Of a DNA stretch of 64,000 nt, positions 1,889-5,647 are shown piece after piece. This DNA comes from Lysobacterales bacterium (GTDB lineage Bacteria > Pseudomonadota > Gammaproteobacteria > Xanthomonadales > BPKI01). Within the stretch, counting starts at the first letter, position 1, and each line of letters begins with the position of its first letter. The position numbers were made by a program, and so were the translations under genes. The notes under the pieces are model-generated. The model was not told the DNA's origin. It saw nothing but the letters and a program-made list of their open reading frames with translations, and did no database searches. The stretch is from contig BPKI01000001.1 of assembly GCA_026005055.1 (NCBI GenBank), forward strand, positions 1,178,001 to 1,242,000. The letters run 5' to 3'.

Positions 1889-3076
1889 ATGCACGAGTGC
1901 TTCGACGTCGCGGTGGTCGGCGGCGGCCCGGTGGGCACGCTCGCCGCGCTCGCCTTCGCGCGCCTTGGGCTGCGAAGCGCGCTGGTGGAGGCCCGCGCGC
2001 CCGGCCCGCCGCTCGGCGATGGGCGGGTTTTCGCGCTCGCCGCAGGCAGCGTCGCCTTGCTTCAGGGGCTCGCGGTTTGGCCTCGCGTGGCGGCGGCCAG
2101 CACGGCGATTCGCAGCGTCCGGGTCAGCGCCGAGGGCGTCTTCGGGACCTTCCGTCTCGATGCCGAGGAGCTCGCGCTTCCGGCCCTGGGGGCGACCGTG
2201 CCGGCGGAGTCGCTTGCCTCGGCTTTGGAGGAATGCCAGAAGACCGCGCCGATCCGCGTCTTCCGCCCTTGCGCACTCCTCGGCATCGAGGCGCGAGATG
2301 CGCTCAGCGATCGGCTCACGCTCCGGCTGCGCGGGCCGGATGGGATGTCCTCGCTCGAGGCGCGACTGCTGCTCGGGGCCGATGGGGCGCAATCCTCCGT
2401 GCGTCGGCTCGCCGGCATCGGCGCATCGGCCTGCGGAAAGCCCGACCGACTGCTGCTTGCGAACCTCGCCGGCGCGCGCGCGCGGCCCCATACCGCCCAT
2501 CTACGTTTCGCGCGCGATGGAGCGGCCGCGCTGGTGCCGAGCGGAGGCGGGCGACTTGCGGGCGTGCTCTCCCTCGGGGGGGATGCGGATGCAGCCGTGG
2601 AAGATCCGGCCCGAGCCTTCCAGGCCCGCATCGGCTGGTCACTCGGTGCGCTGCGCCTGCTCTCCCCGCCGCGGATCCATGCCGTGGCCCCGGAGCAGGC
2701 CGAGCGTCTCGTCGGCTGGCGCGTGGTGCTGATCGGACAAGCGGCGATGAGCCTTCACCCCCTTGCGGCGCAAGGTCTCAACCTCGCACTGCGCGACCTG
2801 GCCGCGCTGGTGGAGGCGGTGGCCCAATCGGAGGATCCGGGGGCGGAAAGGATGCTCGCCGCCTACGAGGAGGCTCGACTGCCGGAGCATCGCCGGACCC
2901 TCGGCTTCGTCGAGGGCCTGAGGAGCTGGTTCGGTCCTCCTCGGGCGAGCTCGCTCGCGACCGCGGTCGGGATGCTGCTCTGCGATCGGCTGGGCGGCAT
3001 CAAGCATGCTCTGGCGGCGTGGGCGAGCGGTCTAAGGCCGCCGGTTCCTGCGCTGCTTCGGGGAGTCTTGCCCTGA
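1889..3076 (+). CDS. ubiH: UbiH-like FAD-dependent ubiquinone biosynthesis hydroxylase
   Basis: 395 residues of the UbiH/UbiF/VisC/COQ6 flavoprotein family. The N-terminal Rossmann motif VAVVGGGPVGTLAAL binds FAD ADP. A mid-protein LLLGADGAQSSVRRLAGI is the DG fingerprint. The C-terminal flavin motif reads GQAAMSLHPLAAQGLNLALRD. In most family members this is GDAAH...GQGxNLG; E. coli UbiH has GNAAQ there, so the acidic residue is also lost in UbiH itself, which favours UbiH over UbiF for this copy. Expected role: aromatic ring hydroxylation of the polyprenyl phenol intermediate at the inner membrane. The stop overlaps the next start (TGATG), coupling it to the paralogue downstream. Confidence 0.85.
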   Translation: MHECFDVAVVGGGPVGTLAALAFARLGLRSALVEARAPGPPLGDGRVFALAAGSVALLQGLAVWPRVAAASTAIRSVRVSAEGVFGTFRLDAEELALPALGATVPAESLASALEECQKTAPIRVFRPCALLGIEARDALSDRLTLRLRGPDGMSSLEARLLLGADGAQSSVRRLAGIGASACGKPDRLLLANLAGARARPHTAHLRFARDGAAALVPSGGGRLAGVLSLGGDADAAVEDPARAFQARIGWSLGALRLLSPPRIHAVAPEQAERLVGWRVVLIGQAAMSLHPLAAQGLNLALRDLAALVEAVAQSEDPGAERMLAAYEEARLPEHRRTLGFVEGLRSWFGPPRASSLATAVGMLLCDRLGGIKHALAAWASGLRPPVPALLRGVLP

Positions 3077-4266
3077 TGCCGCGTCTGGATGCCGACATCG
3101 TGATCGGGGGCGAGGGGCTGCTCGCCGCCGTGAGCGCGGCCGCGCTCGCCGAGGAAGGCTTCGCGGTGTCATGGATCGGCGGGGAGGATCCGCCGCGATG
3201 GGGCGGACCCGGTCCGATCGCGATCGCGCCCGCCGGACGCGCGCTACTCGAGCGCTACCGCCTCTGGCCGGGATCGCCGCCCGAAGGACAAGCGGTACAG
3301 AGGATGCGCGTCTGGGATGCCGGCGGCCGCATCAGCTTTTCGGCCGCCGAGCTCGCAGTGCCCGAACTCGCCCGGATCGTGGACGGTGTTCGTTTATTCG
3401 AATGTGCGCTCGCGGCCGCCCGCGCGAGAGTCGTCGCCGAGGCCAACCGCATCGTCGCGGTCGAACCGGGTCCCGACGCCGTGCGGCTCGTTCTCGCCGA
3501 CGGGCGCAGCCGACTCGCCCGCTTGCTGCTCGCCTGCGACGGCGCCGACTCCCCCCTGCGCCGTCTGATCGGTATCCCGACGCTCGAGCGCGCTTACGGC
3601 GCGAGCGCGCTCAGCTTCCGCGTGCGGAGTCGTCTGCCGCACGATGCGACCGCCTTTCAGCGCTTCCTCCCCGGAGGGCCGATCGCGCTGCTGCCCCTCG
3701 CCGACGGCGCAAGTCAGGTGGTGTGGACCCGGCCCGAGCCCGTCGCGCGCGCCCTGAACGCGCTGAAGCCCGAGGCGCTGGCGAGAGCGGCGACCGAGGC
3801 CTCGGAGGAGTGCTTGGGCGCGCTCGAGATCGAGGGGGCTTGCCGTTTCCTGCCGCTGCGCATGAGGCTCGCCGAAGGTTTCGCAGCGGAAAGAGTGGCC
3901 CTGCTCGGCGATGCCGCTCACCAAGTCCATCCTCTGGCTGGTCAGGGCGCCAATCTGGGGCTTCTCGACCTCGCTTGGCTGATCGCCGTTCTGGCGCGTG
4001 CCCGTCGGCGCGGTCTCGATCTCGGGTCACGAGCGGTGCTCGCGCGATACGCGCAAAACCGACGCAGCGCTGCCGGTCTAGCTGCGCTTGCCTTCGACGG
4101 CCTGGAGCGGCTGTTCTCCTCTGCCGAGGGCCCGCTCGTCCAGTTGCGGCGCATGGGCCTATCGCTGGTCGATCGAATCCCTCCCCTCAAGCGTTGGCTT
4201 GCGCATGAGGCGATGGGCTGGTCGGCCTGGCCCGCAGAGCTGCCTGTCTCCGGCGGTGGCCCGTGA
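3076..4266 (+). CDS. Second UbiH/UbiF/VisC-family FAD-dependent hydroxylase
   Basis: 396 residues, read in the frame of the 1897-4266 ORF but starting at the ATG that overlaps the ubiH stop. It has the N-terminal dinucleotide-binding region (ADIVIGGEGLLAAVSAAALA, GxGxxx-type but with E where family members have P). The middle DG motif is LLACDGADSPLRRLIGI, and the canonical second FAD motif is LLGDAAHQVHPLAGQGANLG. It probably catalyses another ring hydroxylation in ubiquinone synthesis (UbiF, UbiI or VisC type); the exact position cannot be assigned from sequence alone. Its 3' end overlaps the next gene by a GTGA. Confidence 0.85.
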   Translation: MPRLDADIVIGGEGLLAAVSAAALAEEGFAVSWIGGEDPPRWGGPGPIAIAPAGRALLERYRLWPGSPPEGQAVQRMRVWDAGGRISFSAAELAVPELARIVDGVRLFECALAAARARVVAEANRIVAVEPGPDAVRLVLADGRSRLARLLLACDGADSPLRRLIGIPTLERAYGASALSFRVRSRLPHDATAFQRFLPGGPIALLPLADGASQVVWTRPEPVARALNALKPEALARAATEASEECLGALEIEGACRFLPLRMRLAEGFAAERVALLGDAAHQVHPLAGQGANLGLLDLAWLIAVLARARRRGLDLGSRAVLARYAQNRRSAAGLAALAFDGLERLFSSAEGPLVQLRRMGLSLVDRIPPLKRWLAHEAMGWSAWPAELPVSGGGP

Positions 4267-4736
4267 GCGGCCTGCACGACTTCGTCCTGCCCGCTCTCGA
4301 GGGCCCGCCGATCCGCTTCGGTGCTTGGGCGGGGGCGCCGGTGCTGCTCGTCGCGGTTCCCGACCGGGGGGCGCACGCGGAGCGCCACCGGGCGCTGGAA
4401 GCGCTGTGGCAGCGTTTCCACGGGCGTGGCTTGCGGATGGTGGGCTTGCTTTCACCTCCTCGGATACCCGTCGCTTGCGGCTCGCCGGCGGATCTCACGA
4501 GTGTGCGGCATGGTCCGAGTTTCCCCATCACCGCGCCCTTGGAGCTCGTCGGTCCGGCGCGGCACTCCTTGGCGCGTTGGTTGACCGGGCCGGGTTCGCC
4601 ATTCCCGGGCGAGCCTCGCGCCGACTTCGAGAAGTTCCTCTGCGATGGAGGCGGTCGGCTCGTCGGCCGCTATCCCGGTGCGCTCGAGGAGCTGGCGCCG
4701 GAGCTGCTCGCGGCGCTGGAGGTCTTCCTGCCCTGA
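4263..4736 (+). CDS. Glutathione-peroxidase-like thioredoxin-fold protein lacking the catalytic Cys
   Basis: 157 residues starting with GTG inside the previous stop (GTGA). Alignment by eye to glutathione peroxidases: HDFVLPALEGPPIRFGAWAG resembles the opening strand, EALWQRFHGRGLRMVGL matches the helix-strand after the active site, and DFEKFLCDGGGRLVGRYPG matches the C-terminal NFEKFLxDxxGxxVxRxxP block. The usual NVASxCGxT loop is replaced by AVPDRGAHAE, and the Trp-Asn before FEKFL is also missing. Cysteines occur only at about 72 and 127. It is therefore unlikely to be a classical peroxidase. Translational coupling to two quinone hydroxylases suggests a structural, redox-sensing or quinone-handling role, which is inference. 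Confidence 0.65.
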   Translation: MSGLHDFVLPALEGPPIRFGAWAGAPVLLVAVPDRGAHAERHRALEALWQRFHGRGLRMVGLLSPPRIPVACGSPADLTSVRHGPSFPITAPLELVGPARHSLARWLTGPGSPFPGEPRADFEKFLCDGGGRLVGRYPGALEELAPELLAALEVFLP

Positions 4737-4948: not shown

Positions 4949-5647
4949 TCAGCCCTCGCCGCCCAACCAACGGGCGAGCTCGCTCAGGGACTCGAGGACA
5001 TGGTCCGCCCGGGCCTCGCTCGGGGGCACCGCGCCGGGACCGGATCGGCCGCGACGGATCCATACCGTGCGAAGTCCGGTGACACGCGCCGGAGCGATGT
5101 CGTGGAATCGGCTCTGCGCGCAGTGGAGGATCTCCTCGGGCGCGGCTTCCGTGGCCCGAAGCAGCGCCTCGAAACAGCGCGGGTCCGGCTTGTAGGCGCC
5201 GATCTCCTCGCTGGTGAGGACGCAGTCGAAAGGGTTTCCGAGTGACTGAAGCACCGGAGCGAGGAGATCGCGGTCGGTGTTCGAAAGCAGCGCAAGCCGG
5301 TAGCGGGAACGGAGTCGTGCGAGCGCCTCGCGGCTGTCCGGGAACAGCGGGAATCGGGGCAGCGCTCGCAGGAGTGCGTCTTCCTCTCCCGGTGCAAGCG
5401 GCAACGCGAAGTGCTCGCTCAGAGCGCGCATGCAAGCGCGAAGCACCTGGCGATAGGGGCGGAACGGCGGGCGCTCCAGGGCAGCCTCGAACGCCGCATA
5501 GGCGGAGAGCAGTGCCGGCTGGGGCAGGGTTCGTTCCTCGCGCAGGAAGAGCGGAGAGAACACGGCGATGATCCCCCGCTCCCAATCGACCAGAGTGCCG
5601 AAGCAATCGAAGCTCAGCCACCGCAACCCGGACGGCGCGGCGATCAT
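4949..5647 (-). CDS. HAD-superfamily hydrolase, haloacid dehalogenase type II-like
   Basis: 232 residues. HAD motif I is LSFDCFGTLVDWERG (nucleophile Asp plus the FGTLVD signature of type II haloacid dehalogenase-like proteins). Motif II is LLSNTDRD. Motif III Lys lies in EEIGAYKPDPRCFE, and motif IV acidic residues are in ILHCAQSRFHDIAPA, where the usual vxxxxxHDixgA pattern is kept. Reaction: hydrolysis through an aspartyl-enzyme intermediate. The real substrate is unknown, since many such proteins are phosphatases rather than dehalogenases. The start overlaps the ispB stop (ATGA), so it is co-translated. It is convergent with the GPx-like gene across a ~210 bp gap in which I see no gene. 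Confidence 0.85.
   Translation of the reverse strand: MIAAPSGLRWLSFDCFGTLVDWERGIIAVFSPLFLREERTLPQPALLSAYAAFEAALERPPFRPYRQVLRACMRALSEHFALPLAPGEEDALLRALPRFPLFPDSREALARLRSRYRLALLSNTDRDLLAPVLQSLGNPFDCVLTSEEIGAYKPDPRCFEALLRATEAAPEEILHCAQSRFHDIAPARVTGLRTVWIRRGRSGPGAVPPSEARADHVLESLSELARWLGGEG

Follow-up and report, generated by a model that had tools for sequence, protein, structure and literature searches.

Bacterial glutathione peroxidase (GPx)-like proteins have been described as thioredoxin-dependent 2-Cys peroxidases, and in a curated bacterial set of them Cys, Trp and Asn occur in 100% of the sequences and Gln in 95% (PMC10084747). A literature search returned nothing direct on Cys-less GPx, or on a GPx encoded with ubiH in one operon. 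UbiJ and UbiK are non-catalytic partners of quinone hydroxylases. The 64,000-nucleotide stretch of a Lysobacterales genome analysed here (the window) carries a GPx homologue that lacks the peroxidatic Cys and is encoded behind two ubiquinone hydroxylase-like genes. We favour, with moderate confidence, the reading that its product is a pseudoenzyme kept for its fold, the whole active site having been lost in this lineage.

The operon consists of three genes on the plus strand. The first (1889-3076) encodes a UbiH-like FAD hydroxylase of 395 aa, the second (3076-4266) a UbiF/UbiI-like hydroxylase with an altered FAD-binding N-terminus, and the last (4263-4736) the Cys-less GPx-like protein, with a GTG start and 157 codons. 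The UbiH-like stop and the UbiF-like ATG share one base (TGATG), and the UbiF-like stop and the GPx-like GTG overlap by four bases (GTGA). The original prediction, made from the bare sequence, had described an overlap with two hydroxylase genes; the overlapping arrangement is there, but the GPx-like gene directly overlaps the UbiF-like gene only, which itself overlaps the UbiH-like gene. The downstream neighbour, a HAD hydrolase gene (4949-5647), is on the opposite strand. GC content at the three codon positions is 0.78/0.55/0.82 in the GPx-like frame, matching ubiH (0.81/0.57/0.82) and ubiF (0.79/0.56/0.79), and this supports the reading frame. Homology and the codon-position pattern together rule out a spurious ORF in GC-rich DNA.

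Against PDB chains, phmmer aligns residues 12-149 of the GPx-like protein with yeast Hyr1 (3cmi, E 1.7e-7), and its list consists of GPx and GPx-based designs. The NCBIfam model NF007900 matches with E 3e-6, and the Pfam model GSHPx (PF00255) with E 0.0016 and 18.4 bits, which is under its curated cut-off of 27 bits. The best GPx matches in related genomes reach E values down to 1.2e-22 at 31-36% identity, and the protein also aligns with Cys-containing syntenic homologues. Judged from these alignments it is a GPx homologue by descent, homologous along its length, so that the GPx-like frame first recognised by eye, including its FEKFL block at residues 122-126, is borne out.

Structure prediction, which had been proposed as a check on the thioredoxin fold, yields such a fold, of GPx type, when an alignment is supplied. 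AlphaFold with 26 related rows reaches pLDDT 83.3 and pTM 0.82, and the model drops below pLDDT 50 only in the former PCNQF loop (residues 68-83). The 50 matches that Foldseek lists from the PDB are each a GPx or a design based on one, with TM scores, normalised by query length, of 0.70-0.82. The prediction from the single sequence without an alignment fails (pLDDT 38.9), so the modelled fold leans on the canonical GPx rows and is not independent of the homology. Membership in PF00255 should be understood as membership by descent and predicted fold, and the proper name should be GPx homologue rather than GPx.

The active-site columns were read against 47 Cys-containing GPx sequences. In the former peroxidatic-Cys segment (codons 31-43, 4353-4391, plus strand) the Cys is present in 47 of the 47 references and is Gly36 in the window protein, where the relatives' N-V-A-S-x-C-G-x-T-P-Q-Y has become A-V-P-D-R-G-A-H-A-E-R-H. 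There is no TGC or TGT in any plus-strand frame of this segment and both flanks align in one frame, so a local frameshift that hides the Cys does not explain the loss. In the former PCNQF...FC segment (codons 65-80, 4455-4502, plus strand) the loop reads PRIPV, the catalytic Gln is replaced by Pro69, and the resolving-Cys helix has lost its FC, either by deletion or by change. In the former Trp-Asn-Phe-x-Lys-Phe-Leu segment (codons 118-126, 4614-4640, plus strand) FEKFL is retained and the Trp-Asn of the tetrad has become Ala120-Asp121. As aligned, the protein is without every catalytic GPx feature that was tested (Cys/Sec, Gln, Trp, Asn and resolving Cys), and it is probably a peroxidase no longer. 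The original prediction was right that the catalytic Cys loop and the Trp-Asn are gone.

In f11, a related family of the same order, the same slot is occupied by complete peroxidases. A GPx of this type is present in eight of the nine f11 genomes, and the search of relatives behind ubiH/ubiF that had been suggested finds it beside these genes in six of the eight, so operon linkage with the Ubi hydroxylases is conserved. In three of them (G029, G037 and G051) it lies directly behind ubiF with all tetrad residues, and in three others (G058, G065 and G072) it lies one gene further from ubiF, also with a complete tetrad. In the remaining two (G010 and G020) this GPx is encoded elsewhere, away from ubiH-ubiF. 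The Cys is present in each best f11 copy read in the alignment. The gene that lies between ubiF and gpx (at loci L056, L055 and L053 of G058, G065 and G072, respectively) has about 1000 codons and the opposite orientation, and its relatives also occur near gpx at L054 and L059.

Among 30 ubiF loci, the window included, only the window and these three f11 genomes have gpx directly linked to ubiF, and none of the other ubiF loci checked outside f11 has it. The window and f11 share the ubiH-ubiF-gpx slot, either through common descent or because the linkage arose repeatedly, and the comparison indicates that its ancestral gene was an ordinary peroxidase. In the GPx tree the query has a branch length of 10; orthology is argued from synteny because the tree could not place the query. 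It is probable that the window gene is the orthologue of an ordinary thiol-dependent GPx in the arrangement shared with f11. Homologues with an intact Cys at this position had been named in advance as evidence against the original prediction; the syntenic f11 genes are such homologues, but they do not restore the Cys to the window gene.

The loss of the Cys seems to be confined to the window's lineage, as far as searched. Neither the 399 genomes searched in the order nor the 369 in the class yielded a closer orthologue of the Cys-less gene, and a second Cys-less copy of it turned up neither in these two sets nor in f11. The class-level GPx matches that were read contain the Cys (seven of seven), and the only locus returned by a scan of genome contigs belongs to a Rhodocyclaceae bacterium and encodes a GPx that contains the Cys. 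The window's own family is represented by one genome, and a wider Cys-less orthologous group was found neither there nor in the order, the class or f11.

The retained residues are not scattered evenly over the protein. At active-site columns, identity to f11-type GPx is 0.14 in the window protein and 0.72 among relatives; the values are 0.74 and 0.97 at other conserved columns, and 0.26 in both cases at variable columns. Highly conserved columns are kept at 2 of 22 positions near the active site versus 24 of 36 elsewhere (Fisher p = 2.4e-5), and under a second column definition at 3 of 21 active-site versus 23 of 33 other conserved columns. In a simulation, f11-type GPx genes were mutated neutrally until 3 of the 21 active-site columns remained. 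Uniform decay of this kind left about 7 of the 33 other columns on average, and at least 23 of the 33 in 0 of 800 runs. The UbiH-like protein keeps 60 of 86 conserved columns and the UbiF-like protein 67 of 90; these shares are similar to the 23/33 of the GPx-like protein, which suggests that outside its active site it is constrained about as its partners are. The loss is, by these column counts, targeted to the active site, with the residues of the fold retained. This pattern supports the non-peroxidatic role that was first proposed for the protein.

The alternative with the best claim after this one, though we regard it as doubtful, is that the gene is a relic on its way out, released from constraint after the peroxidase function had moved to a second GPx, and now functionless with a frame still unbroken. 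The gene has diverged faster than expected, with an identity of 0.32 to relatives' GPx versus 0.55 +/- 0.05 for other pairs of equal divergence in UbiF; it is the last of its operon, and a second Cys-containing GPx is indeed encoded in the genome. The probability of meeting no stop under pure decay is 0.10-0.35, which is not negligible and makes the open frame, taken alone, weak evidence for selection. Because stop counting is too weak by itself, the column-class test replaced it as the test of selection, and the result of that test speaks against a relic: 0 of the 800 uniform-decay runs match the retention outside the active site, and the non-active columns are constrained about as those of ubiH and ubiF. 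The net indels are also in frame. The marks of a pseudogene (stops, frameshifts, uniform decay) are not found, as the frame is open and the decay is non-uniform.

The second GPx lies at 1798219-1798629 of the 2.44-Mb chromosome and has the Cys and Trp-Asn intact. It has PSNDF for PCNQF, so that the catalytic Gln is replaced by Asp (L120:1702-2646, minus strand; G000:C1 about 1798200-1799150), and it has an apparent signal peptide (LLLLASLIAMPVSA). If the window protein is a pseudoenzyme kept for its fold, the ancestral GPx may have cleared peroxide or lipid hydroperoxide that arose next to the two flavin hydroxylases. The peroxidase activity could then have become dispensable with a second Cys-containing GPx elsewhere in the chromosome, and the fold would have been kept as a binding partner. 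The likeliest partner would be one of the two co-translated hydroxylases, and the GPx cleft would be used for protein or lipid contact and not for thiol chemistry.

A more specific form of this reading has a low probability: the dead GPx would be a dedicated subunit, structural or regulatory, of the two ubiquinone hydroxylases, of which the UbiF-like one has itself undergone a change in its FAD-binding site. Recruitment of the protein to the quinone synthesis complex, as put forward in the original prediction, is a reasonable but unproven guess from operon position alone. Elsewhere in the genome there are one COQ7, a strong UbiK match and a protein with an SCP2 domain that is a UbiJ candidate, so the pathway has no obvious vacancy for the GPx-like protein. 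The other strong FAD_binding_3 protein (L160) is a putative kynurenine monooxygenase, from a reading of its sequence.

The hydroxylases themselves have changed. The UbiH-like protein matches TIGR01984 (UbiH) with E 3.1e-65 and 220 bits, under the equivalog cut-off of 392, and PF01494 with E 4e-23. The UbiF-like protein matches TIGR01988 (Ubi-OHases) with 306 bits, above the cut-off of 224.65. In its FAD motif the third Gly of GxGxxG is replaced by Ala (GEGLLA), and an in-frame deletion of five residues removes the D-L-R motif; across 23 relative rows this motif hardly varies, the variants being D-A-R, G-L-R and N-G-R. The columns kept by the UbiF-like protein compare with 74-90 in relatives. 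The 86 columns of the UbiH-like protein are those conserved in 22 relatives, which themselves keep 76-86 of them, suggesting a rapidly evolving operon or genome. Given the motif losses in the UbiF-like protein, the operon as a whole may be changing.

In its full form this would mean that the three proteins co-evolve towards a new or reduced quinone hydroxylation, with the FAD site of the UbiF-like protein changing together with the GPx active site and the GPx-like protein serving as a structural subunit. The motif changes, the lower column retention in both hydroxylases and the overlapping genes agree with it. The UbiF-like protein, on the other hand, keeps its DG and GDAAHxxHPxAGQGxN motifs intact, the whole genome may simply evolve fast, and with COQ7, UbiK and the SCP2 protein present the pathway otherwise looks ordinary; we consider such a concerted change improbable. 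A still active thiol peroxidase with a displaced Cys is very improbable: two Cys remain, Cys127 after FEKFL and Cys72 in the loop where GPx has its catalytic Gln, but the Cys-activating Trp-Asn and the Gln are gone as well, the whole surrounding motif is lost, and Cys72 falls within the one poorly modelled segment.

As a pseudoenzyme kept for its fold, the window protein would be a clear-cut example from nature of an enzyme that has apparently become a non-enzyme, in a slot where its relatives keep a complete active site. The survey of bacterial GPx-like proteins has Cys, Trp and Asn invariant in its curated set (PMC10084747), and the window copy has lost all three with its fold residues kept. 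The arrangement also suggests a link between GPx and the hydroxylases of ubiquinone synthesis that is testable with the normal relatives.

With the bacterial thioredoxin-dependent GPx-like peroxidases (PF00255), the window protein shares full-length homology, the predicted fold, the FEKFL block and a monomer-type length, and its operon slot is occupied by Cys-containing members of that group. It differs from them in lacking the Cys, Gln, Trp, Asn and resolving Cys, and in falling below the Pfam cut-off. The best named NCBI family for it is the E. coli BtuE-type GPx (NF007900/PRK10606, residues 10-106), but its score of 26.9 bits is under the cut-off of 270 and the catalytic residues are absent. 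UbiJ and UbiK belong to families unrelated to it, and UbiK and the SCP2 protein are encoded elsewhere in the genome.

A parallel is another GPx-like subfamily of the same order, in family f7, where Ser replaces the peroxidatic Cys in 8 of 30 members (L130, L131, L145, L154, L156, L157, L158 and L159, from genomes G006, G017, G041, G207, G091, G126, G151 and G116, respectively). The resolving Cys is also gone in six of the eight; in the other two, L154 and L156, a Cys is still found at its position or close by. L114 (G028) also belongs to the Cys-to-Ser set. The subfamily spans f7 and f9, and the Trp of its members is sometimes replaced by Gly. Two Cys-less pairs have dN 0.09-0.10 and dS 1.1-2.4, the latter near saturation, with dN/dS about 0.04-0.09. 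By these ratios the proteins of the two pairs are under strong purifying selection, indicating that Cys-less GPx relatives can stay as functional genes. Unlike the window gene, this subfamily has no ubiH or ubiF within 1.5 kb, keeps the Asn and mostly the Trp, and has exchanged its Cys for Ser and not Gly. Like the window protein, it is a GPx relative without the peroxidatic Cys that is retained as a gene, and the repeated loss of the Cys in a second subfamily of the order suggests that bacterial GPx pseudoenzymes are under-recognised.
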